This document shows, piece by piece, positions 4,720 through 64,000 of a DNA stretch of 64,000 bases. The notes beneath the pieces were generated by a model, which was given only the letters and a program-made list of their open reading frames with translations, did no database searches and was not told where the DNA came from. The position numbers were made by a program, and so were the translations under genes. Source of the stretch: an uncultured Flavobacteriaceae bacterium (GTDB taxonomy: Bacteria > Bacteroidota > Bacteroidia > Flavobacteriales > Flavobacteriaceae); assembly GCA_905181615.1 (NCBI GenBank), contig CAJIYH010000004.1, forward strand, positions 195,001-259,000, in the 5' to 3' direction. Position 1 is the first letter of the stretch. Each line of letters begins with the position of its first letter.

Positions 4720-4873
4720 GGAGCAAAAATAAGGTTTTATAAATCGTTTTGGCAATAGAATTATTCATCAAGATTTAATTTTTTTTATTAGATTAATTGT
4801 AAGTTTGTCTTGGATGATTTCTCTCCCTAACATATAAGAAGGAATTTATATTAAAATTTTTAAATACTTTAAT

Positions 4874-38758: not shown

Positions 38759-39244
38759 TTGAATTTTTTTATTAGAGTTATTTTATTGGCTTACTTTGTC
38801 ATTGGGACACAATCATCATTAGCTCAAAGCTCAATTATTGATGTAGTCACCCATTCAGATATTGTTACTGACAGTGATAATATTGTGGGAAATGGAGACG
38901 TTGTTGTCTTTACTACAAAAGTTACCAATATAAGTAACATTACGATTTCATCTTTAACTATTTCAAATTCATTAGTTGGGATTGATGGGAGTGTTCTTTC
39001 CCTTTCATCCCCTATAACTTTTGTTAATAATTCTGGTTCCTCTTCTGAAGGAGATTTAATCGCAGGAGAAGTATCTACATATGTATCAACTTATACTTTT
39101 GATTCAAGTGGAGTTACTGCAGGCGGTATTAGTTTAACTGTTTCAGGAACAGCCAGTACTCCTGGTAATACAAATAATGTAATTGATGTTTCTGATGATG
39201 GAGATAATTCTGACGGAAATATTATTAATGACCCAACCAAGTAG
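38759..39244 (+). CDS. N-terminal fragment of the giant surface protein: signal peptide and first repeat
   Basis: This 161-residue frame starts at a TTG and encodes a clear signal peptide (MNFFIRVILLAYFVIG, cleavage after SSLA). It continues with one beta-sandwich repeat (GNGDVVVFTTKVTNISNITI, then GTASTPGNTNNVIDVSDDGD) of the same DUF11/DUF7507-like type as the next gene. It stops at a TAG inside the phrase INDPT, exactly where each repeat hands over to the next. The frame directly after it (from 39241, one base off) continues VVINNIITLVEGTKVENYID, the start of repeat 2. A one-base indel near 39241 therefore separates the export signal from the rest of the giant gene. Confidence 0.85.
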   Translation: MNFFIRVILLAYFVIGTQSSLAQSSIIDVVTHSDIVTDSDNIVGNGDVVVFTTKVTNISNITISSLTISNSLVGIDGSVLSLSSPITFVNNSGSSSEGDLIAGEVSTYVSTYTFDSSGVTAGGISLTVSGTASTPGNTNNVIDVSDDGDNSDGNIINDPTK

Positions 39245-39264
39245 TTATTAATAATATAATAACC

Positions 39265-51200: not shown

Positions 51201-54200
51201 ACCTGTAGGAACACTTAAAGTGAGTGAAACAGCTTTGTATACTGCACAATTCATAATAAATCAAACCGCATATGATGCAGAGTTTATAAGTAATACGGTT
51301 ACCGTTACTGCAAATTCAATAGGATTAACTGGTAATGTATCTGATACCTCTGACGATGGAGATGATAGTGATGGAAATACAGTAGATGATCCTACGGTTA
51401 CTATAATGACTCCAAATTCCGAAATTGAAGCTACAAAAACCTACACAGTAATTGATGATGGTAATGGCAGTATCGATGTAGGAGATATTATTAAATTCAA
51501 CATAACAGTTGAAAATACAGGGAATGCTCCACTCTCAGGTGTATCAATTACAGACTTATTATCCGACGGAAATGGAACCACAATTGCATTATCCGATGGG
51601 CCGTATTTTACGACAGCTTCAATGGGCTCCACAGTTGGTAATTTACAAATAGGGGAAACAGGAAATTATGTTGCTTATTATACAATAACCCAATCGGCTT
51701 ACGACTCATCAAGTATATCAAATATTGTTTCTGTTACTGCTAGTAGTCCATATGGCACAAATGATACGACTGATCTGGGGGATGATGGCAATGACTTAGA
51801 CGGAAATACAGTTGATGATCCCACAGTTGTTATTATTACCTCTGCAGCAGCAATGAATGTTGTTAAAATAGCTTCAGTTTACGATGATGGAGATGGTTTT
51901 ACAAACTTTGGGGATACAATTAACTATACCATAACAGTTCAAAATACAGGAGCTTCAGCCTTAACCACCGTAACCTTAACAGATACCCTTACTGATAACG
52001 CAAGTAACACTTTGACCTTAACCAACGGACCAAACTTTGTGTCTGCATCTCAGGGATCCTCTCAGGGAAACCTTAATGTTGGTGAAATTGCAACCTATTC
52101 GGCAAGTTATTTGATCGAAGCTGCTGCTGCAAATACAGGATCAATTTATAATCAAGTTGTTGCTGTTGCTAGTAGTCCAGGAGAATTAAATGATGTTACC
52201 GACACCTCAGATGATAATGATGACTCTGATGGAAATACCACCAATGACAAGACGGTGGTTGAAATGGATTTTTCACCAATTATAGATATTACTAAAACGT
52301 CATCTCTGATTGATAATAATTCCAATTCTGTTACTGATTTGGGTGACACAATTGTTTATCAAATTTCAGTAAGAAATTCTGGGAATGTTTCACTAAGCAG
52401 CCTTGTCGTTACCGATACTTTAACCGATGCAAATCTTAATCCATTAACATTATCATCAGGTCCAAATTTTGTTTCCTCCTCTTCAAGTTCTTCTGAAGGT
52501 AGTCTTCTTGTTGGGGAGACAGCGACTTATTCTGCAACTTTTGTTATTGATCAAATAGCATTAGACTCAGGAGGTCTATTAAACTCTGTTTACGGATTGG
52601 CAAGTAGCCCTGGTAATAGTAATAATGTTTCTGACACCTCAGATGATGGTGATGATAGTGACGGCAATACTGTTGATGATAAAACCCAGACAAATATAGA
52701 TCAAAGTATAATTTTGGAAGCCACCAAGACAGCAACAGTAACAGATAATAACAGTAATGGTTCTACCGACTTGGGCGATACGATTGTTTATACGATTACG
52801 GTAGAGAACAAGGGTAACGTAACACTATCTAGTATAGGCTTAACCGATACCTTATTGGATGGAGATGGTTCAGCTCTTAGTTTATCAAGTGGTCCAGTGT
52901 TTACATCAGCGAGTGCTTCATCAGCTCAAGGAACCTTGCTTGTAGGAGAGACAGCGAGTTATACGGCGAGTTATACGATAACCCAATTAGCATTAGATAC
53001 GGGAAGTATAAGCAACAGTGTTTTAGTAACTGGAAGCAGTCCAGGTCAGAGTAATAATGTAACGGACACTTCAGATGACGGAGATGACAGTGACGGCAAT
53101 ACAGAAGACGACACCACAGATATAACAATAAGCAACACTCCATCTTTAGAAGTAACTAAGACAGCAGCGATAACCGATAATGGTGATGGTGCAGTCGGTA
53201 AAGGAGATGTGGTTCAGTATACAATCTCTGTGATTAACAACGGTAATGTTACCTTATCTAGTTTAAGTGTAGCAGATGTTTTAAGTGATTTAAATTCAGG
53301 AACACTATCACTTAGTTTTGGTCCATCATTCTCGGGCTCGTCACAGGGATCTGCACAAGGAACTCTTAAGGTAGGCGAGACAGCAAGTTATATTGCTTAT
53401 TTCATAATTAACCAAGCAGCAGTAGATGCAGGAGGCTTATCGAATCAGGCATCAGCTACGGCAAGTAGTCCAGGGAATAGTAATGATGTTACTGATATGT
53501 CTGATGACGGGGATGATAGTGATGGCAATCTAATTAATGATCCAACTGTCACTACAATTACTACATCTAGTTCACTAGAGGTAACAAAAACAGCAGCTGT
53601 AACTGATAATGGTGATGGTAATACAGGAGCTTCTGACGTAATCAACTATACCATTACAGTAGAGAATAAGGGTAATGTTACTTTATCTGGCTTAACCTTG
53701 GTTGATACCTTAACAGATGGAAGTGGCGGATCACTTACACTTACTAATGGTCCATCGTTCTCATCGACAACCTTAGGGTCTTCCCCAGGTACACTAAAGC
53801 CGAATGAGGTAGCAACCTATAGTGGATACTATATCATCAGTGCAAATGCAGCGTTAACTTCTAGTATAAATAACAGTGTATTAGCTACAGCGAGTAGTCC
53901 AGGCCAGAGTAATAATGTAACGGATACTTCTGACGATGGAGACGATAGTGATGGTAATACAGAGGATGATGTAACAGTTGTTGACATTAGTCCAAACCCT
54001 GGAATTGAGGCAACTAAAACAGCTATAGTTATCGATTCAAATTCTAACTCAGCAAATGATCAGGGTGATATAATAGTTTATACAATAACAACTGAAAACA
54101 CTGGAAACGTAACCCTTACTGGTGTAAATTTGACAGATACATTAACAGATAATTCAGGAAACGCTCTTACCTTAACTAGTGGTCCCATCTTTAATTCTGC

Positions 54201-57195
54201 AAGCGCTTCTTCTTCTGCTGGGATATTAAAAATAGGAGAAACAGCAACCTATACGGCATCCTATACAATTGAGGCTGATGCAGCAGCTACAGGTAGCATT
54301 AGAAACCGTGTATTAGTTACTTCGAGTAGTCCAGGGAACACAGATGATGTTATCGATATATCTGATAATGGTGACGACAATGATGGTAATACTGTAAATG
54401 ACCATACTGTTGTTTCAGCTACTGCCGAACCAAAATTAGAAGTAACTAAAACTTCTATTTTAATTGATAATAATAGTGATGGAAATACAGGTGCTGGAGA
54501 TACATTAGTTTACACCATAGCAATTACTAACACCGGGGGAATTACATTATCTAATATTTCTTTAGTTGACGTATTAACCGATGGTAATGGTAATGGATTA
54601 GCACTATCTTCAGGCCCTACTTTAACTTCTGCTTCATCAGGGTCGTCTGCTTCAACTCTTCAAGCTACAGGTGTTCTTACTTATACTGCAACTTACACAA
54701 TATCAAGTGCTGCAGCCAACACATCTTCTATCAACAACCGAGTAACGGTTACCGCTAGTAGTCCAGGGAATAGTAATAATGTTATAGATGTATCTGATGA
54801 TGGCGATGACAGCGATGGAAATACAGAAGATGATCAAACCACGATATCTATTGATGCTATTCCTGTATTGGAAGTAACTAAAACAGCCTCTGTCACCGAT
54901 GATGGAAATGGAATCACTGGCCAAGGAGATGTAATAAATTATGTAATCACAATAGAGAATAAGGGTAATGTTACGCTTTCTAGTTTAACAGTTACAGATA
55001 GTCTAACCGATGGTAACGGAGGTTTACTAGCTATGGGTAACGGGCCTTATTTCTCTGGATCTGACCAGGGGTCTGGTTTAGGAATATTACTACCAGGCGA
55101 AACATCTACCTATAGAGCTTATTATATTATAACGGCTGCTTCTGCAGCAACCGGCCAAATCTCCAATATAGCTACTGCTACGGCGAGTAGTCCAGGCAAC
55201 AGTAATGACGTTTCTGATCAGAGTGATGATGGCGATGACACGGATGGTAATTTAGTTGATGATCCAACGATTGTAGATATTGTCCCAAATACTTCAATGG
55301 AGATTACTAAAACCGCATCTGTTACTGATAATGGAGATGGGGTAAATGGAACTGCAGATGTTGTTGTTTATACTATTACGGTTAATAACACGGGAGACAC
55401 CTCTCTTACAGGAGTAATAATAAGTGATGTTCTTACTGATGGAAACGGAACAGTACTATCCTTAGATGCAGGACCTACCTTTGGAAGTGCTTCTTCAGGG
55501 TCATCACAAGGCACTTTAGCCTCAGGCGAAATTGCAACCTATACAGCTACCTATACTATTGCTCAAACCCCTGCTAATACAGGTTTAATTAGTAATGTTG
55601 TTACAGGTACAGCATCTTCCCCAGGTCAGAGTAATAATGTTACAGACACCTCAGACGATGGTGATGATAGTGACGGCAATACAACTAGCGACGCGACGAT
55701 TGTAAACACTCAATCTAGTGGAGCTATGGAAGTCACCAAGACAGCATCAGTAGTAGACACTAATGGTAATGGGAACAACGATCAGGGTGATGTAATCGTT
55801 TATACGATAGCCGTGGCCAATACGGGTAGTGTTACCCTATCAGGTTTAGCATTAACTGACACGTTAACGGACGGCTCAGGAGGTTCTCTTAGTTTAGCTT
55901 CAGGTCCAACTTTTACTAGTAACAGCGCCTCTTCAGCGGAAGGGAGTTTAGCAGTAGGAGAGATATCTACTTACACAGCGACTTATACGATAAGCCAGAA
56001 TGTAGCCAATACAGGGTCAGTAAACAACAGTGTATCTGCAACGGCTAGTACTCCAGGGAACAGTAATGATGTTACTGATGTATCAGACGATGGTGATGAT
56101 AGTGATGGAAATACAGCAAATGATGTAACAGTAGTTTTAACAAGTTCAGATTCTTCCATAGAGGTAACTAAAACAGCTGTTGTAAATGACACTAATGGTA
56201 ATAGTAAAACAGATCAAGGTGATGTAATCGTTTACAATATTACGGTTCGCAACACAGGAAATATTACCCTTAGCAGCATAACAGTTAGCGACACCTTAAC
56301 AGACGGTAATGGAGGATCTTTAAGTTTAGATATCGGACCAAGTTTTGTATCGAATAGCGGTTCATCAGCACAAGGGACATTAATCTCGGGTGAGATTGCT
56401 ACCTATACAGCAACTTATACGATAAGCGCGGCAGCAGAGAACACACCAAGTATTAATAATACCGCTCAGGCAACAGCTAGTACACCTGGAAACACAAATG
56501 ATGTTAGTGATGTATCGGATAATGGTAATGATGGGGATGGTAACACGAGCAATGATCCAACGGTAGTAAACATTACAGCAAGTCCCCAGATGGAAGTAAC
56601 CAAAGAAGGAACGGTTACTGACAATGGTGATGGAGTTTTAGGAGTAGGCGATACAGTAAATTATACCATAAAAATCGAGAACCAAGGGAATGTAAATATT
56701 ACAGAACCATCATTAGTAGATACCTTCACAGATGCACTGTCCAACACCTTAGCATTAACAAGCGGACCAACGTTTGACTTTGGAGACCTAGGTTCTTCAG
56801 AAGGAACTATCAAGCCAAATGAGACGGCTCACTATGGGGCAACCTTTGTAATCACACAAGGGGTAGTAGATGCAGGAGGACTGATCAATAGTGTAACAGT
56901 AACAGCGAGTAGCACGGGTAATCCAGGTGGTCTTAGTGATGTATCGGATGACGGGGATGACACAGATGGTAATACAACCAACGATACTACGGTCTTGGTT
57001 ATTAATCCAAACCCAATTATTGAAACTACTAAAACAGCTGTAATAGTTGACAATAACTCTAATGGTATAAATGATTTAGGAGACACAATCACCTACACAA
57101 TTACGGTAGAAAATAAGGGTAATGTAAGTTTAACCGGATTAGGATTAGTTGATACCTTAACTGATGGTAATGGTGCTTCACTTAGTCCTTATTGA
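39265..57195 (+). CDS. giant DUF11/DUF7507-like repeat surface protein (main fragment)
   Basis: This single frame of 5,976 residues encodes about 33 tandem beta-domains of roughly 143 residues. Each begins with a pattern like (L/I)EVTKTA.TDNGDG...GD and passes through Y(T/S)I.V.N.GN. Then come DTLTDGNG, SGP.F.S.S.GSSQGTL, G(E).ATYTATY.I.Q..., and a final Asp-rich turn SDDGDDSDGNT.NDPTV. Such domains are extracellular spacers in Bacteroidetes adhesins, and the Asp clusters probably bind calcium. Inserted modules are TSP3-like repeats, jelly-roll modules, a lectin-like domain and a cupredoxin-like domain. It lacks its own signal peptide, which is on the preceding fragment. It ends at a frameshift near 57190. 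Export by type IX secretion is inferred; the C-terminal sorting domain would lie beyond the window. Confidence 0.85.
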   Translation: MVEGTKVENYIDNDSNGSIGLGDQLEYIITVYNNGEEDLENIELFDILKDLNNNTLALVAPFTPPGPIFVSSDQGSINSNILVGETVTYKAVYLVQQGAVDSGGLNNCLDVQVDGVNSGRRFTDTADNGNDSDGNLINDCTASTITATPSIEVTKSAIVQDVNGNSQNDPNDIINYTIRIENDGDLTLTGLVIADTFVDGNSNSISLNSAPAFSTSSLGSSEGTLQVGEVAIYTAAYTISLISANSGSVSNSLLVTASSPGQSNNVSDTSDDGIQDDGNIIDDPTITSLSINKKIEATKTFSIADNGNGQNGQGDVVTYTITIENTGQINVSGITLVDQLTNCDGSSILTLSSGPTWNSNSGSSAQGSLDPGEIASYTATYTIGSVEIDSGCILNTVTATASSPGFTNDITDVSDDGNDADGNLVNDPTRIDFSVNPVIEVTKTGLLIDNGDDLPGVSDTAVFTITIVNTGNTALSTITLSDTFTRLDGTALTLDSGPSFNSSSGGSAQGTLQSGESATYTASYTVDAADVASNAVVNQVTVSAEAFNGTVITDVSDNGNDLDGNTENDITEIRLDYAPLLEVTKTVSVSANPVLGDVAVYSINIENKGNVNLNTLSIVDTFVGLAGASISLDAGPTFTSASLGSSEGNIVKGEIATYTATYTISQGAIDSGGFRNTAVVSARNPGSSSTDVSDASDDGDDTDGNITNDPTDVVISEDAFLEAVKTSTYTDSDSDSQLSFGDTVNYSITVQNKSNVTLDNLQLTDDLQNISLTSSMTLDTGPSFVSSNLGSSFGSLKPNEIASFIGTYLIRQADVDAGGISNQVSATAQTPANTVLYDLSDDNDDFDENTENDRTESPITRTPLIEVTKTSTITDQGDGQVGLGDTITYSISVFNAGNQNLSSVTLDDYFTTMNGNALTLSSSITFVSASLGSNEGSLLVSETAEYTSTFIINQTSIDDGGTSNIVTVTAASSNATVTDISDDGDDADGNLVNDPTQNIFSGSLELEATKTYTITDSNSDGITGIGDIINYSIVVENKGTESLTNFSITDTLTDANGNSLSLNASPTSSDGSIIAPLSTKTYLASYTISQSALDNGGLKNTALVQASNIAGTIYVTDISDDGDDSDSNTATDTTDVIIAANSSLNLTKTYVNIDNDSDGVISSGDKLVYTFSVINDGNITQNYIFITDAISDFDGNTLALDSYASPNRLAFNSNSNGSTPGTLISGEVGTYTATYTVQSANIASGGISNTATASSFVYIDGNPVIKAVDKSDDGDDTDGNTIDDPTLSYFGGMPIIEVTKTATYTGSADGADVGDIAVFTITVENKSTQDVIQNLTFVDTLTDTYLSGNTMSSTVTFNSASAGSSQGTLTIGETATYTSSYTITQSDIDAGGLRNSITFEGTSARNPVQSEKDVSDVSDNGNDLDGNLIDDPVILILGTDSDGDGTPDSTDIDDDGDGILDRDEQCLTFLLDGNSFESYTGAFPPQSPGNRNSPYPNISTAPPFTSVNGDGEVWSSSQGPQGTSFSPQQGFYFIELLTNASSANDGSYWNETSLGSNGNYDRIMVIENVYPNRTYNINYYQQEGGRFVATHAGGGASLVQVQSMQTNYAVSFISTSTSSWVSNTVSFTTDSQTTRVAVLFSAYSPGINSSVQLDAISMTASDSCNNDIDGDGVPNGLDLDSDNDGIYDVIESGNEALDTNNDGIISGLDTGYLDSDLNGASDVTESNVLKDSDADGIIDAFELDSDNDGCNDVQEAGYTDGNSDGILGGSPVTQDSNGKVTSGSDGYTQPQDLNIDLLFDYRDAAYDVGCYNPALDVVKTYTVSDTNGNGINDVGDVINYTVVATNTGGLDLLFTNTNDILTYGSNQNTLTLNWSSTSTSVLVTPTHNLFKYSNYIEDSSTYWLENNNGQATPQTEYGYVPNIPYYFNTNSGSSYSEVDHVFTTEGFGVTRSPYTYAGTDARVHTYSRVSNQNNVTYYHYQNVSLEANTTYTVSLYAAAPNNTYYNTVQNYEKLRFVSRPPSGTDTYSDYNRVTGPVTSNNSNSDTGWSRYSHTFTTGAAGTYRVGFSAPYFGNNWTRVWGVQLEVGSSAGRYSYTFSSTQQNAAESIFVDPSESALPAGESATFTSSQIITQEIFDLAPEISNSVTFTASYTSPGGISGTVQGVSDDGDDSDGNTENDPTVTSLSRTQGVEVTKTFTLTDVNSNTKTDIGDQVNYTITISNTGNTSLKSFTVTDTLSRSNGETVATLGTASLTTVTRKNFFNYSYTIDDSGSGWSEYQGISGASNQNIEPPNSVPYYFNTNSGAAYSTVDSWFPNEGNGTTPASSSGSLNFSDSGIRPGIIYTSGTEEQGYHNGYWAYKIASLEEGQTYTFSVYVKGTNGSQLDDSFRFIIDNDSNAQDATVVSTDQFMTTSWVRKSYTFTASFSGNHYVGIHPTKYSTNYYWGLQLEKGNLPTRFIYTSNLTPEVALPLPLNVPLSTYIEWASNQPDYNSSTYAAAFMNGTSASDQQYSSGLASIIEVEPENFTNFDNRPTSGHFDNGGPYEHNGHRYYRETTTWDFATHKSNATAASGYLAVPNTKAEWDFLKNMISTNFSNANHYIGVYQDNTSSDFTSDNIKGGWTVTDGSGSTVLLPGEITSLAPNSVSILEYTHTITQADVNSGGLSNSVIASANGFSTVSDTSDDGDDTDGNLVDDPTVTELSKTSSLTVAKTAVVSDVNSDSLNGVGDIITYTITVTNTGNTKLSTVTLIDQLTDALGNVLSLNSTPTYVSSYGTGLVSGTLQNLFKYSNYIEDSSTYWLENNNGQATPQTEYGYVPNIPYYFNANSGSSYSEVDHVFTTEGFGVTRSPYTYAGTDARVHTYSRVSNQNNVTYYHYQNVSLEANTTYTVSLYAAAPNNTYYNTVQNYEKLRFVSRPPSGTDTYSDYNRVTGPVTSNNSNSDTGWSRYSHTFTTGAAGTYRVGFSAPYFGNNWTRVWGVQLEKGSSPTRYNYTFSSLSPYIGTKVGTATIIDNNQILESNTGLVGDYYVDTYTASYTITQSDVDSGFVSNIATITSIDPDGSTVVSATIDDPTVVSLATTPTLEVIKTSTISDVNANGLNDIGDIITYSIVVSNTGYVTLSSITPLDTPTDSSGASLSLNAPLSTVTSTSGSTSSTILPNGSTTFTASLTVNQQALNSGGVTNTILITASSPGQTDNVTSTHQVYTQLTTVSPVIEITKTASITDNGDGVNGVADIITYSITIENKGNVNLQSLDIDDIFTDGNGNSVSLALSPTYQSTTISGTTSANDDGILGINHIDNYTANYVVKQADVDSGNLSNVVSVTASSPGFTDDASDVSDDGDDSDGNTVNDPTVTTFTPSASIEITKTATINDVNGNSENDLNDIISYTFEVKNTGNVNLSTPTLSDYLSDGVGLDLSSELNGPTYQSQTLSPSIVEYTVTIASVSGQNKFFIDGIQQKNIVFQKGYTYRFIQSDASNNSHPINFSTISDGTHNSGTSYTTSITSSGSPGSSNAYTQIYISDSTPALYYYCANHSGMGGNTSSIGSVSGVQNILRPNEIVTYTASYTISGSSANTAFISNVASVTASSPGNSNDVSDLSDDGDNSDGNTTNDPTIVELVPDPKMEITKTVTQTADNGDGLLGTGDTITYTIVVENTGNLLLSGLSLSDTMADGNGNSLSLDSGLTFVSASLGSSSGTLQLTEVATFTGTHILTRPTVNSGLVSNSIYGLASAGDLSNNVSDTSDDGDDSDGNLIDDPTVFNIPQVLDLNVTKTQAHLDLDGLGTINLGDKIIYTIEVNNLSNVELTSVSLVDTFTDLLSNTLTLDSGPTFISASLSSPSGTIKSNEVATYTATFTINQAAIDGAGLSNSVLVSSSSPGLSNNVTDTSDDGDDSDGNTDNDTTVTEINLISSLDVTKTATVNDTNSNSRTDINDIITYTITVLNNGETTLTGISFNDVITTSLGAQLSLTANPARISTSDGSPVGTLKVSETALYTAQFIINQTAYDAEFISNTVTVTANSIGLTGNVSDTSDDGDDSDGNTVDDPTVTIMTPNSEIEATKTYTVIDDGNGSIDVGDIIKFNITVENTGNAPLSGVSITDLLSDGNGTTIALSDGPYFTTASMGSTVGNLQIGETGNYVAYYTITQSAYDSSSISNIVSVTASSPYGTNDTTDLGDDGNDLDGNTVDDPTVVIITSAAAMNVVKIASVYDDGDGFTNFGDTINYTITVQNTGASALTTVTLTDTLTDNASNTLTLTNGPNFVSASQGSSQGNLNVGEIATYSASYLIEAAAANTGSIYNQVVAVASSPGELNDVTDTSDDNDDSDGNTTNDKTVVEMDFSPIIDITKTSSLIDNNSNSVTDLGDTIVYQISVRNSGNVSLSSLVVTDTLTDANLNPLTLSSGPNFVSSSSSSSEGSLLVGETATYSATFVIDQIALDSGGLLNSVYGLASSPGNSNNVSDTSDDGDDSDGNTVDDKTQTNIDQSIILEATKTATVTDNNSNGSTDLGDTIVYTITVENKGNVTLSSIGLTDTLLDGDGSALSLSSGPVFTSASASSAQGTLLVGETASYTASYTITQLALDTGSISNSVLVTGSSPGQSNNVTDTSDDGDDSDGNTEDDTTDITISNTPSLEVTKTAAITDNGDGAVGKGDVVQYTISVINNGNVTLSSLSVADVLSDLNSGTLSLSFGPSFSGSSQGSAQGTLKVGETASYIAYFIINQAAVDAGGLSNQASATASSPGNSNDVTDMSDDGDDSDGNLINDPTVTTITTSSSLEVTKTAAVTDNGDGNTGASDVINYTITVENKGNVTLSGLTLVDTLTDGSGGSLTLTNGPSFSSTTLGSSPGTLKPNEVATYSGYYIISANAALTSSINNSVLATASSPGQSNNVTDTSDDGDDSDGNTEDDVTVVDISPNPGIEATKTAIVIDSNSNSANDQGDIIVYTITTENTGNVTLTGVNLTDTLTDNSGNALTLTSGPIFNSASASSSAGILKIGETATYTASYTIEADAAATGSIRNRVLVTSSSPGNTDDVIDISDNGDDNDGNTVNDHTVVSATAEPKLEVTKTSILIDNNSDGNTGAGDTLVYTIAITNTGGITLSNISLVDVLTDGNGNGLALSSGPTLTSASSGSSASTLQATGVLTYTATYTISSAAANTSSINNRVTVTASSPGNSNNVIDVSDDGDDSDGNTEDDQTTISIDAIPVLEVTKTASVTDDGNGITGQGDVINYVITIENKGNVTLSSLTVTDSLTDGNGGLLAMGNGPYFSGSDQGSGLGILLPGETSTYRAYYIITAASAATGQISNIATATASSPGNSNDVSDQSDDGDDTDGNLVDDPTIVDIVPNTSMEITKTASVTDNGDGVNGTADVVVYTITVNNTGDTSLTGVIISDVLTDGNGTVLSLDAGPTFGSASSGSSQGTLASGEIATYTATYTIAQTPANTGLISNVVTGTASSPGQSNNVTDTSDDGDDSDGNTTSDATIVNTQSSGAMEVTKTASVVDTNGNGNNDQGDVIVYTIAVANTGSVTLSGLALTDTLTDGSGGSLSLASGPTFTSNSASSAEGSLAVGEISTYTATYTISQNVANTGSVNNSVSATASTPGNSNDVTDVSDDGDDSDGNTANDVTVVLTSSDSSIEVTKTAVVNDTNGNSKTDQGDVIVYNITVRNTGNITLSSITVSDTLTDGNGGSLSLDIGPSFVSNSGSSAQGTLISGEIATYTATYTISAAAENTPSINNTAQATASTPGNTNDVSDVSDNGNDGDGNTSNDPTVVNITASPQMEVTKEGTVTDNGDGVLGVGDTVNYTIKIENQGNVNITEPSLVDTFTDALSNTLALTSGPTFDFGDLGSSEGTIKPNETAHYGATFVITQGVVDAGGLINSVTVTASSTGNPGGLSDVSDDGDDTDGNTTNDTTVLVINPNPIIETTKTAVIVDNNSNGINDLGDTITYTITVENKGNVSLTGLGLVDTLTDGNGASLSPY
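43572..44700 (+). other. TSP3-like calcium repeats flanking a beta-rich module in the giant gene
   Basis: After the eleventh repeat domain the protein reads TDSDGDGTPDSTDIDDDGDG, a thrombospondin type-3-like calcium motif. A module of about 190 residues follows (LDGNSFESYTGAFPPQ to SVQLDAISMTASDSC) bounded by cysteines. A second group of TSP3-like motifs (DIDGDGVPNGLDLDSDNDGI, DSDADGIIDAFELDSDNDGC) then leads back to the repeat domains. TSP3 stretches often act as rigid calcium-dependent hinges in Bacteroidetes surface proteins. The inner module resembles carbohydrate- or ligand-binding jelly rolls but I cannot name the family. Confidence 0.7.
44932..45509 (+). repeat. 578-bp module, copy 1 (jelly-roll/phage-tail-like domain)
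   Basis: This stretch encodes a domain of about 190 residues inserted in repeat 12, from FKYSNYIEDSSTYWLENNNG to GNNWTRVWGVQLE. It resembles jelly-roll modules common in phage tail fibres and polysaccharide-binding proteins (F.YS...WGVQLE.G...RY.YT). The identical sequence recurs 2,685 bases downstream with one visible base difference. Confidence 0.85.
46041..47150 (+). other. second jelly-roll module plus C-type-lectin-like domain in the giant gene
   Basis: Repeat 13 is interrupted by two modules. The first (about 46041-46650, from NFFNYSYTIDDSGSGWSEYQ to YYWGLQLEKGNLPTRFIYTS) is a distant relative of the duplicated 578-bp module. The second (about 46657-47150) contains RETTTWDFATHKSNATAASG, YLAVPNTKAEWDFLKNMI, HYIGVYQD and KGGWTVTDGSG. 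This order is characteristic of C-type-lectin-like domains (A...LA.I....E..FL...., IG..D....G.W...DG). Both are likely ligand-binding. The family calls come from motif pattern only. Confidence 0.6.
47617..48194 (+). repeat. 578-bp module, copy 2
   Basis: This is the second copy of the module at 44932-45509, inserted in repeat 14. In reading both copies I found a single base change (Thr codon ACA to Ala codon GCA in YYFN(T/A)NSGSS). Identity starts abruptly at TTCAAATATTC and ends abruptly at GGGGGGT, so the copy was transferred as a precise block and recently. Confidence 0.85.
49561..49890 (+). other. cupredoxin-like domain inserted in repeat 17
   Basis: A stretch of about 110 residues interrupts a normal repeat after LNGPTYQSQTLSPS. 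It reads VEYTVTIASVSGQNKFFIDG, IVFQKGYTYRFIQSDASNNS and HPINFSTISDG, and ends YISDSTPALYYYCANHSGMG. The final Y-Y-C-x2-H-x2-M arrangement with an earlier HPINF histidine reproduces the His, Cys, His, Met ligand set of type I copper proteins. Similar modules occur in marine phage and bacterial structural proteins. The insertion ends within GSVSGVQNILRPNEIVTYTA, where the host repeat resumes. Confidence 0.7.
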
Positions 57196-57455
57196 GCGGT
57201 CCTACGTTTGTTAGTTCGAGTGCTTCATCATCTGCAGCAGGGTCATTAGCTGTATCTGAGATAGCAACTTATACTGCGACTTATAGTGTAACACAACAAG
57301 CGGTAGATAGTGGAAGTGTAGTTAACACAGTACTGGCCACGGCGTCCTCACCACAAAACACGAATGATGTAATAGACCGTAGTGATAATGGCGATGATAG
57401 TGATGGAGAAACTCAAGACGATAATACGGTAGTAGTTCTTAGTCGTACATCAGAA
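52714..57455 (+). repeat. super-repeat unit 1 (11 domains)
   Basis: Eleven consecutive beta-domains form one higher-order unit starting at LEATKTATVTDN. The same order of domain types recurs 4,742 bases later: types starting ATKTAT, AAITDNGDGAVGKGD, AAVTDNGDGN, IEATKTA, and so on to the pair MEVTKEGTVTDNGDG and (I/L)ETTKTAVI. Confidence 0.85.
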
Positions 57456-57560
57456 TTAGAAGCGACCAAGACAGCAACAGTCATAGACAATAACAGTAGT
57501 AGTTCGACGGATTTAGGGCGACACTATAGTTTATACGATTACAGTAGAGAACAAGGGTAG
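57192..57560 (+). CDS. giant surface protein fragment 3
   Basis: This short open frame of about 120 residues lies between two frameshifts. It holds the second half of repeat 34 (SGPTFVSSSASSSAAGSLAV and beyond) and the beginning of repeat 35 (LEATKTATVIDNNSSSSTDL). It then runs out of frame at an extra C near 57519, where the intact downstream copy reads GGGGACAC and this one GGGCGACAC. It is not an independent gene. Confidence 0.6.
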   Translation: MSGPTFVSSSASSSAAGSLAVSEIATYTATYSVTQQAVDSGSVVNTVLATASSPQNTNDVIDRSDNGDDSDGETQDDNTVVVLSRTSELEATKTATVIDNNSSSSTDLGRHYSLYDYSREQG

Positions 57561-60500
57561 TGTAACACTATCTAATGTAGGCTTAACCGATACCTTATTG
57601 GATGGAGATGGTTCAGCTCTTAGTTTATCAAGTGGTCCAGTGTTTACATCAGCTAGTGCTTCATCATCTCAAGGAACCTTGCTTGTAGGCGAGATAGCGA
57701 GTTATACGGCGAGTTATACGATAACCCAATTAGCATTAGACACGGGAAGTATAAGCAACAGTGTATTAGTAACAGGAAGCAGCCCAGGACAGACCAACAA
57801 TGTAACAGACACATCTGATGATGGGGATGACAATGATAGCAATACAGAAGATGACACGACAGATATAGCGATAAGCAAGAGTCCATCGATAGAAGTAACT
57901 AAGACAGCAGCGATAACCGATAATGGTGATGGTGCAGTGGGTAAAGGAGATGTGGTTCAGTATACAATCTCTGTGATTAACAACGGTAATGTTACCCTAT
58001 CTAGTTTAAGTGTAGCAGATGTTTTAAGTGATGCGAGTGGAAACACACTTAGTTTAAACAGCGGCCCGTCCTTCTCGGGCTCGTCACAGGGATCTGCCCA
58101 AGGGACACTTAAAGTAGGTGAGACAGCAAGCTACAGTGCACTTTATATTATTAACCAAGCAGCAGTAGATGCAGGAGGCTTATCGAACCAGGCATCAGCT
58201 ACTGCTAGTAGTCCAGGGAATAGTAATGATGTTACTGATCTGAGTGATGACGGGGATGACAATGATGGCAATCTAATTAATGATCCAACTGTCACTATAA
58301 TTACTACATCTAGTTCACTAGAGGTAATAAAAACAGCAGCTGTAACTGATAATGGAGGTGATGGTAATACAGGTTCAGGAGATATTATAAATTATACCAT
58401 TACAGTAGAGAATAAGGGTAATGTTACTTTATCGGGCTTAACCCTGGTTGACACCTTAACTGATGGAAGTGGCGGATCACTTACACTTACTAATGGTCCA
58501 TCGTTCTCATCGACAACTTTAGGTTCATCACCAGGCACCTTAAAACCGAAGCGAGATAGCAACTTATAGTGGATACTATATCATCAGTGCAAATGCAGCA
58601 TTAACTTCTAGTATAAATAACAGTGTATTAGCTACAGCGAGTAGTCCAGGCCAGAGTAATAATGTAACCGACACCTCAGATGATGGAGACGATAGTGATG
58701 GTAATACGACAGATGATGTAACGGCTGTATCGATCACTCCACTTCCAGCCATAGAGGCAACTAAGACAGCGGTAACAACAGATAATAATAGTAATGGTAT
58801 TGTAGACTTAGGTGATACGATTGTTTATACTATTACGGTAGAGAACAAGGGTAATACAAGTTTATCAGGGTTGACGTTGGTTGACACATTAACAGACAAT
58901 AATGGATTAGCACTTAGTTTATCGAGTGGACCAATCTTTACATCAGCAAGTGCAGGGTCTTCTCAAGGGACACTGACTCTTGGAGAAACAGCAACCTATA
59001 CGGCATCGTATACAATAACACAGGTAGCGGTAGACGCAGGAGGAACATCTAACACAGTATTAGCAACAGCATCTTCTGCTGGGAATACGGATGATGTAAC
59101 CGACACCTCAGATGATGGAGATGATGATGACAACAACACCACTGACGATCCAACGATCACTAGTATAACAGCTTCTCCAGGGATAGAGGCGACCAAGACA
59201 GCAACTGTACTTGACAATAATGGAGATAGTAATACAGGCGCAGGCGACACCATAGTGTATACGATAACGGTTCAAAATACAGGAGGTACTTCACTTTCTA
59301 ATATTTCATTAAATGACGTGTTGACTGATGGAAATGGATCTAGTTTATCACTTACTTCAGGACCAATATTTGTATCGAATAGTGCTTCGTCAGCAGAGGG
59401 TTCCTTAGCTGTAAATGAGATAGGAACTTACACTGCTACTTATACCATATCAAGTGCAGTAGAGAATACTTCATCGGTAAATAACCGAGTAACGGTTACC
59501 GCTAGTAGTCCGGGACAGAGCAATAATGTAACTGATGTATCTGATGATGGCGATGACAATGACGACAACACTGAGGATGATCAAACTGTTGTAGCAATAG
59601 ACGCTGTTCCAGTATTAGAGGTAACTAAAACAGCATCTGTAACTGATAATGGAGACGGTTATACAGGTTCTGGTGATGTGGTTAATTATGTAATCACAAT
59701 AGAGAATAAGGGTAATGTTACGCTTTCTAGTTTAACGGTTACCGATAGTCTAACCGATGGTAATGGAGACAGTCTAGTAATGAGCAACGGACCCTACTTC
59801 TCAGGTTCTGACCAGGGATCTGCACAAGGAACTCTTGTTGCTGGTGAGACTGCTACCTTCCAAGCCTATTACATTATTTCGTCTGCTGCTGCTGAATCAG
59901 GCCAAATCTCCAATATAGCTACTGCCACGGCGAGTAGTCCAGGCAACAGTAATGATGTTTCTGATCAGAGTGATGATGGTGATGACACGGACAGTAATTT
60001 AGTTGATGATCCAACGGTCACTTCAATGAATCCTATACCATCTATTGAGGTTGTCAAAACAGTAAGTACGATTGATAATAACTCTAATTCTTTGAATGAT
60101 ATTAATGATACCGTTGTCTATACCATTACGGTTAATAATACAGGTAATTTACTATTAACAAATGTTGCTTTAACGGATGTTCTTACTGATGGAAACGGAA
60201 CAGCACTATCCTTAGATGCAGGCCCTACATTTGTTTCTGCTACAGATAGCTCAAATTCTCAAATACTTCAAATAGGTGGAACTTCAACATTTACAGCTAC
60301 CTATACTATTGCTCAAAACCCTGCTTATAGCGGTATCATCAGTAATATTGTTTCGGTTACTGCAAATACTTCAGCAGGCATCAATGTAAGTGATCAAAGT
60401 GATGATGGCGATGATAGTGACGGTAATACAGTTGATGACCCTACAACTATTCAGACATCTCCAAGAGCTATGATGGAAGTCACCAAGACAGCATCAGTAG

Positions 60501-62197
60501 TAGACACTAATGGTAATGGGAACAACGATCAGGGTGATGTAATCGTTTATACGATAGCCGTGGCCAATACGGGTAGTGTTACCCTATCAGGTTTAGCATT
60601 AACTGACACGTTAACGGACGGCTCAGGAGGTTCTCTTAGTTTAGCTTCAGGTCCAACTTTTACTAGTAACAGCGCCTCTTCAGCGGAAGGGAGTTTAGCA
60701 GTAGGAGAGATATCTACTTACACAGCGACTTATACGATAAGCCAGAATGTAGCCAATACAGGGTCAGTAAACAACAGTGTATCTGCAACGGCTAGTACTC
60801 CAGGGAACAGTAATGATGTTACTGATGTATCAGACGATGGTGATGATAGTGATGGAAATACAGCAAATGATGTAACAGTAGTTTTAACAAGTTCAGATTC
60901 TTCCATAGAGGTAACTAAAACAGCTGTTGTAAATGACACTAATGGTAATAGTAAAACAGATCAAGGTGATGTAATCGTTTACAATATTACGGTTCGCAAC
61001 ACAGGAAATATTACCCTTAGCAGCATAACAGTTAGCGACACCTTAACAGACGGTAATGGAGGATCTTTAAGTTTAGATAGCGGACCAAGTTTTGTATCGA
61101 ACAGCGGTTCATCAGCACAAGGGACATTAATCTCGGGTGAGATTGCTACCTATACAGCAACTTATACGATAAGCGCGGCAGCAGAGAACACACCGAGTAT
61201 TAATAATACCGCTCAGGCAACAGCTAGTACACCTGGAAACACAAATGATGTTAGTGATGTATCGGATAATGGTAATGATGGGGATGATAACACGAGCAAT
61301 GATCCAACGGTAGTAAACATAACTGCAAGTCCTCAGATGGAGGTAACCAAAGAAGGAACAGTTACTGACAATGGTGATGGAGTTTTAGGAGTAGGAGATA
61401 CAGTAAATTATACGATAAAGATAGAGAACCAAGGGAATGTAAATATTACAGAACCATCATTAGTAGATACCTTCACAGATGCACTGTCCAACACATTAGC
61501 ACTGAGTAGTGGACCAACGTTTAACTTTGGAGATCTAGGTTCTTCAGAAGGAACTATCAAGCCAAATGAGACGGCTCACTATGAGGCAACCTTTGTAATC
61601 ACACAAGGGGTAGTAGATGCAGGAGGACTGATCAATAGTGTAACAGTAACAGCGAGTAGCACGGGTAATCCAGGTGGTCTTAGTGATGTATCGGATGACG
61701 GTGATGATACGGATGGTAATACGACCGATGACACTACGGTCTTGGTGATTAATCCAAACCCAATACTAGAGACAACTAAGACTGCAGTAATAACAGACAA
61801 CAACAGTAATAGTATAAACGACTTAGGAGATACAATCACTTATACAATCACAGTAGAGAATAAAGGTAATGTAAGTCTGACCGGATTGGGATTAGTTGAC
61901 ACCTTAACTGATGGAGATGGAGGATCCTTATCCTTATTGAGTGGACCTACGTTTGTTAGTTCGAGTGCTTCATCATCTCAAGGGTCATTAGCTGTATCTG
62001 AGATAGCAACTTATACTGCGACTTATAGTGTAACACAACAAGCGGTAGATAGTGGAAGTGTAGTTAACACAGTACTGGCCACGGCGTCCTCACCACAAAA
62101 CACGAATGATGTAATAGACCGTAGTGATAATGGCGATGATAGTGATGGAGAAACTCAAGACGATAATACGGTAGTAGTTCTTAGTCGTACATCAGAA
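57456..62197 (+). repeat. super-repeat unit 2 (11 domains)
   Basis: This is the second 4,742-bp unit, starting at the LEATKTATVIDN codons. Domains 4-7 of the unit (about 58.8-60.4 kb) have diverged from unit 1 more than domains 1-3 and 8-11, which points to patchy homogenisation. Confidence 0.85.
57598..58569 (+). CDS. giant surface protein fragment 4
   Basis: This 323-residue open frame, back in the phase of the main fragment, holds the second half of repeat 35 (DGDGSALSLSSGPVFTSASA) and repeats 36 and 37 (AAITDNGDGAVGKGD and AAVTDNGGDGNTGSGD types). It ends in KPKRDSNL at a one-base insertion near 58551, where the intact copy has KPNEVATYSGYY. It is a slice of the same giant gene. Confidence 0.65.
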   Translation: MDGDGSALSLSSGPVFTSASASSSQGTLLVGEIASYTASYTITQLALDTGSISNSVLVTGSSPGQTNNVTDTSDDGDDNDSNTEDDTTDIAISKSPSIEVTKTAAITDNGDGAVGKGDVVQYTISVINNGNVTLSSLSVADVLSDASGNTLSLNSGPSFSGSSQGSAQGTLKVGETASYSALYIINQAAVDAGGLSNQASATASSPGNSNDVTDLSDDGDDNDGNLINDPTVTIITTSSSLEVIKTAAVTDNGGDGNTGSGDIINYTITVENKGNVTLSGLTLVDTLTDGSGGSLTLTNGPSFSSTTLGSSPGTLKPKRDSNL

Positions 62198-63760
62198 TTA
62201 GAAGCGACCAAGACAGCAACAGTCATAGACAATAACAGTAGTAGTTCGACGGATTTAGGGGACACTATAGTTTATACGATTACAGTAGAGAACAAGGGTA
62301 GTGTAACACTATCTAATGTAGGCTTAACCGATACCTTATTGGATGGAGATGGTTCAGCTCTTAGTTTATCAAGTGGTCCAGTGTTTACATCAGCTAGTGC
62401 TTCATCATCTCAAGGAACCTTGCTTGTAGGCGAGATAGCGAGTTATACGGCGAGTTATACGATAACCCAATTAGCATTAGACACGGGAAGTATAAGCAAC
62501 AGTGTATTAGTAACAGGAAGCAGCCCAGGACAGACCAACAATGTAACAGACACATCTGATGATGGGGATGACAATGATAGCAATACAGAAGATGACACGA
62601 CAGATATAGCGATAAGCAACACTCCATCGTTAGAAGTAACTAAGACAGCAGCGATAACCGATAATGGTGATGGTGCAGTTGGGAAAGGAGATGTGGTTCA
62701 GTATACAATCTCTGTGATTAACAACGGTAATGTTACCTTATCTAGTTTAAGTGTAGCAGATGTTTTAAGTGATGCGAGTGGAAACACACTTAGTTTAAAC
62801 AGCGGCCCGTCCTTCTCGGGCTCGTCACAGGGATCTGCCCAAGGGACACTTAAAGTAGGTGAGACAGCAAGCTACAGTGCACTTTATATTATTAACCAAG
62901 CAGCAGTAGATGCAGGAGGCTTATCGAACCAGGCATCAGCTACGGCTAGTAGTCCAGGGAATAGTAATGATGTTACTGATCTGAGTGATGACGGGGATGA
63001 CAATGATGGCAATCTAATTAATGATCCAACTGTCACTACAATTACTACATCTAGTTCACTAGAGGTAATAAAAACAGCAGCTGTAACTGATAATGGAGGT
63101 GATGGTAATACAGGTTCAGGAGATATTATAAATTATACAATTACAGTAGAGAATAAGGGTAATGTTACTTTATCTGGCTTAACCTTGGTTGATACCTTAA
63201 CAGATGGAAGTGGCGGATCACTTACACTTACTAATGGTCCATCGTTCTCATCGACAACCTTAGGGTCTTCCCCAGGTACACTAAAGCCGAATGAGGTAGC
63301 AACCTATAGTGGATACTATATCATCAGTGCAAATGCAGCGTTAACTTCTAGTATAAATAACAGTGTATTAGCTACAGCGAGTAGTCCAGGCCAGAGTAAT
63401 AATGTAACGGATACTTCTGACGATGGAGACGATAGTGATGGTAATACGACAGATGATGTAACGGCTGTATCGATCACTCCACTTCCAGCCATAGAGGCAA
63501 CTAAGACAGCGGTAACAACAGATAATAATAGTAATGGTATTGTAGACTTAGGTGATACGATTGTTTATACTATTACGGTAGAGAATAAGGGTAATACAAG
63601 TTTATCAAGCTTAACTCTGGCAGATACTCTTAGCGATGGAAGTGGTGGATCACTAACCTTAACAAGCGGACCAACATTTACATCAGCAAGTGCAGGATCA
63701 AGCTCAAGGAACACTGACCCTTGGAGAAACAGCAACCTATACGGCATCGTATGTAGTTAG
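58871..63760 (+). CDS. giant surface protein fragment 5
   Basis: This 1,629-residue frame holds repeats 38 (second half) to 49. Coding sequence in this phase actually begins at about 58553, right after the preceding frameshift, and reads EIATYSGYYIISANAALTSS; the start given is only the first usable start codon. The domains have the same pattern and the same order of types as in super-repeat units 1 and 2. It ends SAGSSSRNTDPWRNSNL at an extra base near 63701-63704, where other copies read GSSQGTLTLGETATYTASY. No signal peptide or C-terminal sorting domain is present. Confidence 0.75.
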   Translation: MTLVDTLTDNNGLALSLSSGPIFTSASAGSSQGTLTLGETATYTASYTITQVAVDAGGTSNTVLATASSAGNTDDVTDTSDDGDDDDNNTTDDPTITSITASPGIEATKTATVLDNNGDSNTGAGDTIVYTITVQNTGGTSLSNISLNDVLTDGNGSSLSLTSGPIFVSNSASSAEGSLAVNEIGTYTATYTISSAVENTSSVNNRVTVTASSPGQSNNVTDVSDDGDDNDDNTEDDQTVVAIDAVPVLEVTKTASVTDNGDGYTGSGDVVNYVITIENKGNVTLSSLTVTDSLTDGNGDSLVMSNGPYFSGSDQGSAQGTLVAGETATFQAYYIISSAAAESGQISNIATATASSPGNSNDVSDQSDDGDDTDSNLVDDPTVTSMNPIPSIEVVKTVSTIDNNSNSLNDINDTVVYTITVNNTGNLLLTNVALTDVLTDGNGTALSLDAGPTFVSATDSSNSQILQIGGTSTFTATYTIAQNPAYSGIISNIVSVTANTSAGINVSDQSDDGDDSDGNTVDDPTTIQTSPRAMMEVTKTASVVDTNGNGNNDQGDVIVYTIAVANTGSVTLSGLALTDTLTDGSGGSLSLASGPTFTSNSASSAEGSLAVGEISTYTATYTISQNVANTGSVNNSVSATASTPGNSNDVTDVSDDGDDSDGNTANDVTVVLTSSDSSIEVTKTAVVNDTNGNSKTDQGDVIVYNITVRNTGNITLSSITVSDTLTDGNGGSLSLDSGPSFVSNSGSSAQGTLISGEIATYTATYTISAAAENTPSINNTAQATASTPGNTNDVSDVSDNGNDGDDNTSNDPTVVNITASPQMEVTKEGTVTDNGDGVLGVGDTVNYTIKIENQGNVNITEPSLVDTFTDALSNTLALSSGPTFNFGDLGSSEGTIKPNETAHYEATFVITQGVVDAGGLINSVTVTASSTGNPGGLSDVSDDGDDTDGNTTDDTTVLVINPNPILETTKTAVITDNNSNSINDLGDTITYTITVENKGNVSLTGLGLVDTLTDGDGGSLSLLSGPTFVSSSASSSQGSLAVSEIATYTATYSVTQQAVDSGSVVNTVLATASSPQNTNDVIDRSDNGDDSDGETQDDNTVVVLSRTSELEATKTATVIDNNSSSSTDLGDTIVYTITVENKGSVTLSNVGLTDTLLDGDGSALSLSSGPVFTSASASSSQGTLLVGEIASYTASYTITQLALDTGSISNSVLVTGSSPGQTNNVTDTSDDGDDNDSNTEDDTTDIAISNTPSLEVTKTAAITDNGDGAVGKGDVVQYTISVINNGNVTLSSLSVADVLSDASGNTLSLNSGPSFSGSSQGSAQGTLKVGETASYSALYIINQAAVDAGGLSNQASATASSPGNSNDVTDLSDDGDDNDGNLINDPTVTTITTSSSLEVIKTAAVTDNGGDGNTGSGDIINYTITVENKGNVTLSGLTLVDTLTDGSGGSLTLTNGPSFSSTTLGSSPGTLKPNEVATYSGYYIISANAALTSSINNSVLATASSPGQSNNVTDTSDDGDDSDGNTTDDVTAVSITPLPAIEATKTAVTTDNNSNGIVDLGDTIVYTITVENKGNTSLSSLTLADTLSDGSGGSLTLTSGPTFTSASAGSSSRNTDPWRNSNLYGIVCS
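60476..63606 (+). repeat. near-identical 3.1-kb block, downstream copy
   Basis: This is the in-frame partner of 55729-58866. It covers repeats 42 to 49 (first part). Similarity stops sharply after GGTAATACAAGTTTATCA at 63606, where the two copies become clearly different sequences. Confidence 0.85.
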
Positions 63761-64000
63761 TAGTTCAGCTGCATATACTGGATTTATCTCTAACACAGTA
63801 TTAGCAACAGCTTCTTCTGCTGGGAATACGGATGATGTAACCGACACCTCAGATGATGGAGATGATACAGATAGTAATACCACTAATGATCCAACAGTAG
63901 TTAATATAACAGCTTCTCCGGGAATAGAGGCAACTAAAACAGCAACGGTTACAGATAATGGTGATGGAGTTTTGGGTAAAGGAGATATAGTTAGATATGA
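62198..64000 (+). repeat. super-repeat unit 3, partial (runs off the window)
   Basis: The third occurrence of the LEATKTATVIDN unit start lies again 4,742 bases after the previous one. Four domains and the beginning of a fifth are visible before the window ends. Confidence 0.8.
63702..64000 (+). CDS. giant surface protein fragment 6, continues past the window edge
   Basis: After the last frameshift the coding phase continues QGTLTLGETATYTASYVVSS, then TVLATASSAGNTDDVTDTSD, and the start of repeat 50 (IEATKTATVTDNGDGVLGKG). The frame is open to the last base of the window, so the giant gene is longer than 25.2 kb in total. No usable start is claimed; this is a slice of the same gene. Confidence 0.6.

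Follow-up and report, generated by a model that had tools for sequence, protein, structure and literature searches.

Periscope Proteins are bacterial surface stalks of tandem domains in which the repeats are near-identical at the DNA level and repeat number differs among relatives, as does the protein described here (PMC8201768, PMC9704523). The accounts that we consulted propose intragenic recombination as the cause of the differences in repeat number (PMC8201768, PMC9704523). They also put forward a conflict: length variation needs identical DNA, while identical neighboring domains risk misfolding together (PMC8201768). SprB of Flavobacterium johnsoniae resembles our case in another respect, since it is a very long type-B substrate of the type IX secretion system (T9SS) with a carrier of the PorP/SprF family (PMC12635249). 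Here, we describe a giant predicted surface-protein gene in 64,000 nucleotides of flavobacterial DNA (the window), in which domain types recur in the same order in blocks of eleven and the number of full blocks ranges from one to three among species of one genus. We think it likely that the gene encodes a giant T9SS type-B stalk that grows and shrinks by 11-domain blocks through homologous recombination.

The window comprises bases 195001 to 259000 of contig C4 (276,121 bases) in a 2.19-Mb assembly of seven contigs (G000). The source is a species in the genus Candidatus Arcticimaribacter (NS5 marine group, Flavobacteriaceae). We also used a second contig of this assembly, C2 (886,628 bases), and the DNA directly beyond the 3' end of the window on C4 (L002, where L002:1 is the first base after the window). 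The relatives were Candidatus Arcticimaribacter forsetii AHE01FL (G001; NZ_OU342399.1), AC_MB531 (G017), AH_MB4 (G018), V_MB133 (G016), and two fragmentary Arcticimaribacter metagenome-assembled genomes (G012 and G015). The G001 genome is that of an isolate sequenced with PacBio and Illumina and error-corrected (PMC9122927). Five long arrays were compared, those of the window, G001, G016, G017, and G018; the partial arrays of G012, G015, and C2 were not counted. Domain types are clusters of all domains at 70% residue identity, and the five arrays were written as strings of these types. Tables of domain identity and offset cover 44 domains at 50128 to 69074, with the N-terminal and insert-bearing domains handled by type only. 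Identities across arrays compare like types with like, and short partial domains give inflated best-match values.

The super-repeat is real and had been correctly seen in an earlier sequence-only reading of the window, which somewhat over-read its exactness. Three unit starts had been placed at the motif LEATKTAT..DN, at 52714, 57456, and 62198, with two spacings of 4,742 bases each, and we found the motif again at these positions. A dot plot had been proposed as the check for off-diagonals near 4.74 kb. Self-comparison of the array gave long matches at lags of 4740 to 4747 and 9484 to 9487 bases, with near-identical stretches at lags 4747, 4742, 4741, 4740, 9484, and 9487 and longest exact runs of 607, 280, 359, 164, 90, and 308 bases, respectively. 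The 607-base run pairs 55726 with 60473 (lag 4747). Tandem Repeats Finder reported nothing on the array; its longest period is 500, and therefore it is blind to the super-repeat.

We compared the 44 domains at offsets of 1 to 24. DNA identity exceeded 0.8 in 12 of 33 pairs at offset 11, in 3 of 22 pairs at offset 22, and in none of the 701 pairs at the remaining 22 offsets (mean, 0.711). The claim that types recur in order every eleven domains held insofar as offsets 11 and 22 alone exceed 0.8. It did not hold at every position: units 1 and 2 exceed 0.8 at eight of the 11 positions, and the other three, positions 4, 5, and 7 (0.711, 0.738, and 0.741), show background DNA identity. The three unit starts stand, but the third copy is not a full unit. 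All four of its domains match unit 2 (0.995, 0.986, 0.949, and 0.854), and different domains follow. The window contains two 11-domain units and a 4-domain partial unit, as follows.

38759 to 64000 and on to 5,392 bases past the window (L002:5392), + strand: giant surface-protein gene, about 10,200 codons, TTG start, five frame breaks as assembled
52714 to 57455, + strand: super-repeat unit 1, 11 domains, types 28-38; frame break near 57.2 kb
57456 to 62197, + strand: super-repeat unit 2, 11 domains, types 28 29 30 39 40 33 41 35 36 37 38; frame breaks near 57.5 and 58.5 kb
62198 to 63923, + strand: partial third unit, 4 domains, types 28 29 30 39; frame break near 63.7 kb
52714 to 54003, + strand: block 28-29-30, copy 1 (proposed recombination substrate)
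57456 to 58750, + strand: block 28-29-30, copy 2
62198 to 63490, + strand: block 28-29-30, copy 3
55726 to 57455, + strand: block 35-38, copy 1, its first 607 bases exactly identical to copy 2
60473 to 62197, + strand: block 35-38, copy 2

The period of exactly 4,742 bases was not borne out. The local lag drifts through 4747, 4742, 4741, and 4740 across the reading-frame breaks, and in the unbroken genes of G001 and G017 the one-unit lag is 4734 to 4740 bases. Because 4,742 is not a multiple of 3 and the drift tracks the frame breaks, the two intervals are equal only by coincidence. The predicted length step of about 1,580 residues agrees with the 1,578 to 1,580 codons per unit in the unbroken genes. 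In the super-repeat zone of all five genomes, neighboring domains share a mean residue identity of 0.54 to 0.56 (maximum, 0.70), and domains eleven apart share 0.82 to 0.92 (4 to 26 pairs per genome).

G001, G017, G018, and G016 carry the gene cluster, and G012 and G015 carry part of it. All five long arrays follow one order of types, with these exceptions: the N-terminal middle region (with types 7 and 8) occurs in two alternative forms, as does the 3' end, G017 has two additional tail domains, and G016 has two domains without a type, one in its second unit and one at its 3' end. Between types 27 and 42, G001 and G018 each hold one full unit, the window and G016 two, and G017 three; in all five arrays the full units are followed by the same partial unit, 28-29-30-39. 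The suggestion that the block of eleven is the unit of amplification is thus borne out by the one, one, two, and three full units of the four other assemblies. The open frames of G001 (9,219 codons) and G017 (12,095 codons) are both unbroken, and exact runs between units reach 3,230 bases in G017. These unbroken frames and the hybrid sequencing of G001 indicate that the block is real and that its number differs by whole units.

The second unit of G016 is a near-copy of its first (0.988 to 1.0 at types 31, 32, and 35-38; 0.877 at type 33), whereas in the window and G017 the second unit differs from the first (types 39, 40, and 41). This suggests at least two separate expansions, each by eleven domains, although the five frame changes of G016 in that stretch call for caution. 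Contig ends lend the super-repeat weak support: 6 of 6 sister-genus contigs (L042, L043, and L045 to L048) stop at or within about one domain of its edge (types 29 or 42), and the fragmentary G012 and G015 contigs end elsewhere (types 50 and 47).

Because all species have the partial unit, their ancestor must already have had 28-29-30 blocks at a distance of eleven domains. Many copies within one genome are near-identical. In a tree of the 28-29-30 copies, those of G001 grouped together (100/100), as did those of G016 (100/100) and copies 2 and 3 of the window (98/98). Synonymous divergence (dS) within one genome was 0.08 in the window (types 35-37), 0.13 in G001, and 0.53 in G018 (types 28-30), compared with 1.20 between G016 and G017 (types 28-30) and 1.04 between G001 and G017 (types 35-38). 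Domains split by a frame break were left out, so the comparison of units 1 and 2 of the window covers three domains, types 35-37. The ratio of nonsynonymous to synonymous divergence (dN/dS) was 0.06 to 0.11 in four chosen between-species comparisons, and thus the domains are under purifying selection.

Identity between species is a mosaic. The window and G017 are 0.995 to 1.00 identical at types 24, 26, and 27, 0.96 to 0.98 at types 42-47, and 0.80 and 0.77 at types 50-51. G001 and G018 are 0.93 to 0.97 identical at types 42-46 and 0.75 to 0.85 over the comparable types of 1-11, and their carriers (see below) are 68% identical. Because segments of 93 to 100% identity lie beside segments of 75 to 85%, interior segments of the array seem to have moved between species by homologous exchange.

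Beyond the super-repeat, the gene and its 3' neighbors are laid out as follows.

38837 to 43572, + strand: N-terminal run of 11 DUF7507/DUF11 domains, types 1-11; frame break near 39,240
44707 to 50127, + strand: region with inserted non-repeat modules (NF048003, CBM_4_9, C-type-lectin-like)
63924 to 64000 and on through L002:1-5392, + strand: unique tail, types 42-53, ending in a CHU_C/T9SS type-B sorting domain
L002:5396-6331: PorP/SprF carrier gene, directly 3' of the giant gene
L002:6335-8950: OmpA-family gene
L002:9158-10891: tetratricopeptide repeat (TPR) protein gene

The gene starts with the TTG at 38759, and its signal-peptide-like stretch resembles that of the relatives. It holds 65 recognized repeat domains or part-domains (68 matches before split ones were joined), which are DUF7507/DUF11 by Pfam and TIGR01451 by NCBIfam (PF24346, 394 bits over 39265 to 43500; TIGR01451, 143.8 bits). 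In the whole genome, 85 of 87 DUF7507 matches exceed the curated cutoff, all on C4 and C2. A two-domain AlphaFold model (mean predicted local distance difference test score [pLDDT], 88; predicted template-modeling score, 0.74) is a pair of beta-sandwiches. Foldseek returned 64 matches to this model at an E value of 0.001 or better, with integrin alpha chains best and transglutaminases, immunoglobulins, and bacterial adhesins lower down.

Inserts within 43501 to 49500 match NCBIfam NF048003, "phage head spike fiber domain," in three stretches (71.9 bits; cutoff, 36). The CBM_4_9 match is marginal, at 24.8 or 26.4 bits depending on query length (cutoff, 25.9). The C-type-lectin-like module, at about 46.9 to 47.2 kb, matches Lectin_C at 22.7 bits (cutoff, 22.6), and the orthologs in G001 and G018 score 18.1 to 18.7 bits, below that cutoff. 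The best PDB sequence matches of the G001 ortholog are C-type lectins (E value, 0.0025). The lectin- and CBM-like modules are a hint that glycans may be the ligands. A cupredoxin-like module near 49.6 to 49.9 kb, considered from a copper-protein-like motif, was rejected; Pfam gave no match of that kind. Separately, we observed that one inserted module occurs twice in the gene, at 44834 to 45614 and 47519 to 48299, in nearly identical copies 2,685 bases apart and with exact runs of 117 and 460 bases; in G001 a weaker match occurs at lag 2676.

The C terminus matches CHU_C (PF13585, 7e-25; TIGR04131, 2.3e-10, 40.5 bits against a cutoff of 35). The frame of the PorP/SprF gene begins three bases after the stop of the giant gene (PF11751, 2e-72; TIGR03519, 6.5e-73), and from this position its product presumably carries the giant protein. 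With a sorting domain and an adjacent carrier gene present, the giant protein is a predicted T9SS type-B substrate that would be secreted and anchored at the cell surface. Any PorP match at 1e-20 was found in 14 of 19 genus genomes, and carriers at least 67% identical to that of the window were found only in G001, G017, G018, G012, G015, and G016; of the other genomes, many are fragmentary. Mature carriers contained no cysteine in 8 of 8 examined. A Cys-X-Cys motif of SprF is described as invariant in close homologs, needed for gliding, and linking SprF to the gliding track (PMC12635249). The NS5 group has been described as lacking gliding and as free-living, separate from particles (PMC9122927). 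The carriers without cysteine and the nongliding NS5 lifestyle together suggest that the giant protein is probably a static, nongliding surface fiber, for which the role of adhesin, shield, or something else is conceivable. At the end of contig C4 we also noted a Bact_surface_Ig-like (PF16403) protein with near-identical 246-base repeats (L002:14701-16978).

We propose the following mechanism. The chain of immunoglobulin-like DUF7507/DUF11 domains would form the stalk, whose N-terminal third bears the inserted modules, the lectin-like one among them. At the C terminus, the CHU_C domain would tie the protein to the outer membrane via the adjacent PorP/SprF carrier. An ancestral partial duplication would have left two 28-29-30 blocks eleven domains apart. 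Unequal crossover, with gene conversion, could then occur between these blocks and later between whole units. Each crossover would add or remove exactly one 11-domain block, a step of about 1,579 residues, or roughly 45 to 55 nm of fiber length if a domain measures 4 to 5 nm. A bolder version is that the super-repeat resolves the conflict set out for Periscope Proteins: near-identical partners lie eleven domains apart and neighbors are only about 55% identical, so the fiber could switch by about 1,579 residues, perhaps within one population, while array interiors, with segments of 96 to 100% DNA identity next to others at about 80%, are exchanged between species. We hold this version only tentatively and think it doubtful; other family members seem to tolerate near-identical neighbors, which speaks against avoidance of misfolding as the reason for the block.

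Several observations weigh against the recombining stalk that we propose. The units are not interchangeable throughout, as types 31/39, 32/40, and 34/41 differ between them (0.68 to 0.79). Homogenization is incomplete: the two 28-30 copies of G018 come together in 20% of bootstrap trees, which is no support, and the first 28-30 copies in the lineage of the window and G017 group by position. Much of the array is almost identical among the window, C2, and G017, so the contrast in dS holds only between more distant lineages. The arrays compared are from different species, and ongoing length change is therefore a prediction. The second unit of G016, which includes an untyped domain, falls in a stretch with five frame changes in that assembly. 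Of the five frame breaks on the contig of the window, four are in the array, and the contig may be chimeric, with a join at about 57.0 kb. As to the fiber itself, whole-chain template-modeling scores of the Foldseek matches are low (at most 0.46), the lectin and CBM matches are marginal, and AlphaFold modeled the lectin-like module poorly (pLDDT, 46.5). The free-living lifestyle of NS5 also sits awkwardly with an adhesin role.

Some of these points bear on whether the repeat could be an artifact. The frame breaks in the window gene lie at about 39240, 57190, 57510, 58540, and 63700, the last four inside the array. G018 has one, in the super-repeat zone, and G016 five, all in the zone, and there are none in G001, G017, or the C2 part. 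Over C4, G018, and G016, 10 of 11 breaks fall in super-repeat zones, which make up 24 to 37% of those arrays. They look like consensus error in repeats, not decay. A decaying pseudogene with real frameshifts would account for the five breaks in the window gene, but we regard this as distinctly unlikely: the four broken array domains are still 0.92, 0.995, 0.95, and 0.85 DNA-identical to their counterparts one unit away, the breaks of three assemblies cluster where consensus polishing is hardest, and the G001 and G017 orthologs are unbroken. The same clustering and the ending of C2 inside the array would fit a repeat made by misassembly, through a false join of two strains or loci or through a duplicated bubble. 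That explanation is very improbable, however, as the units differ per domain (0.71 to 1.00 DNA identity) and so are not copies of one read path, and as the 11-domain unit occurs in four other assemblies, including that of the hybrid-sequenced isolate and that with the 12,095-codon unbroken frame. This recurrence speaks against a pure assembly duplication but leaves room for an error in the unit number or join of this contig. It is quite possible, if somewhat short of an even chance, that the super-repeat is real in the genus but that the contig is chimeric near 57.0 kb, in which case its unit number and 3' flank would not be those of one chromosome. C2 ends inside the array, where its types 34-37 are 0.995 to 1.000 identical to C4, and diverges from about 57.0 kb (type 38, 0.903). 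On C2 there is a second 3' end (L023, G000:C2:867001-886628) with its own PorP (83% identical), OmpA, and TPR genes, and only a single 5' end was seen in the assembly. This count of ends could come from a false join near 57.0 kb, or from two real loci, the 5' half of one of them being absent. Between C4 and C2, the OmpA and TPR proteins share only 67% identity, and the genes beyond them differ. Up to 57.0 kb, every one of types 22-37 on C4 has an identity of 0.98 or more to G017; over the remaining array the values are mixed (about 0.86 to 1.00). A single unrelated join, however, does not explain why the window is again 0.98 to 1.00 identical to G017 at 60044 to 61336 and highly similar at types 42-47; the contamination estimate is 0.1%, two real loci in one genome would give the same picture, and similar mosaicism occurs between species of the genus. 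To judge whether the two ends of the gene on C4 go together, we compared flanking genes: only PorP, OmpA, and TPR were common in the stretches compared, and no gene upstream in the window was matched. For the M20 peptidase beyond the TPR gene, the match in G003 was 87% and those in the rest of the 19 genus genomes were 44% or lower, and the 16.9-kb G003 contig had no other gene in common with the C4 and C2 stretches compared. We consider the unit number of the window uncertain and not to be trusted; those of G017 and G001 are better supported.

Two further explanations accept the repeat and account for its period differently. If the period were kept by function, as a ruler in the manner of the titin C-zone, and not by recombination geometry, one would see domain order kept across species at a dN/dS of about 0.1, as we do; the 11-domain unit of titin fits a 43-nm filament repeat (PMC10665226). 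We think a ruler unlikely. No partner whose period would match is known here, and G001 and G018 hold only one full unit. Steps of eleven already follow from an ancestral partial duplication, with no function needed. The eleven of titin is, as far as one can tell, a coincidence. Growth by single domains, with gene conversion alone making the apparent order, is scarcely credible. The patchy identity of units 1 and 2 suggests some conversion, but no offset besides 11 or 22 exceeds 0.8, near-identical neighbors were not seen, and the differences between species are in whole units. Block-wise recombination of a T9SS type-B stalk is still the reading that we prefer.

To place the super-repeat within the family, we scanned arrays for the lag covering most bases, with masked bases excluded. 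This lag was 4737 to 4791 bases in all five Arcticimaribacter arrays. The same scan was applied to repeat-rich long genes upstream of PorP/SprF-family genes at 24 other loci in 21 Flavobacteriaceae genomes. Their main lag was 72 to 1,167 bases; in 14 of the 24 it was 282 to 432 bases, about one domain. These loci were picked mostly from single-contig genomes, not at random, among the 267 family genomes (of 397) that had a carrier match; the stretch examined was 13.6 to 20 kb in 21 loci and 40 to 60 kb in three, domain families were checked for four, and the longest frames within these stretches were 1,464 to 6,318 amino acids. Smaller higher-order periods, perhaps of two to three domains, were seen in G215 (L124 to L126) and G222 (L130 to L131), with main lags of 891 and 1167 bases.

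Variation in stalk length is already known for units of one or two domains; what is new here is the eleven-domain unit and its recurrence across a genus. With its whole-step differences among species, the genus is a natural test case for whether unit size follows from recombination geometry or from function, and for the idea that stalks must avoid identical neighbors. It also suggests that block amplification and interspecies exchange shape some of the longest genes of marine flavobacteria, which fragmentary assemblies leave unresolved.

Of the described systems, SprB is matched here in secretion type and carrier family, but a gliding adhesin of the SprB type was rejected, since the carrier has no cysteine and hence no Cys-X-Cys. 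The A-band of titin is likewise built of units of eleven immunoglobulin-like domains, with whole-unit growth and with central units most alike (PMC10665226); titin is an unrelated eukaryotic muscle protein, and the likeness is an analogy only. Among the listed titles and abstract openings on bacterial super-repeats and giant adhesins, none named an 11-domain unit of a bacterial adhesin. In the accounts that we consulted, the units of Periscope Proteins are one domain (SHIRT or Rib) or a pair (E-G5 of SasG) (PMC8201768), whereas here the unit is eleven different domains. Periscope Proteins are recognized by repeats of more than 50 residues with high DNA identity, which occur here at the 11-domain level only (607 bases in the window and 3,230 bases in G017), and by repeat numbers that differ between strains, where we see one to three units between species of one genus. 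A strict assignment as a Periscope Protein was rejected on this last point, as the variation known here is between species, not strains. Periscope Proteins are also expected to form a rod-like array of high-stability domains, where we have a modeled pair of beta-sandwiches, and to sit on the cell surface with a functional domain projected by the stalk, where we have a sorting domain, a carrier gene, and marginal lectin and CBM matches. By analogy, the giant protein would work like a Periscope Protein with an unusually large unit.

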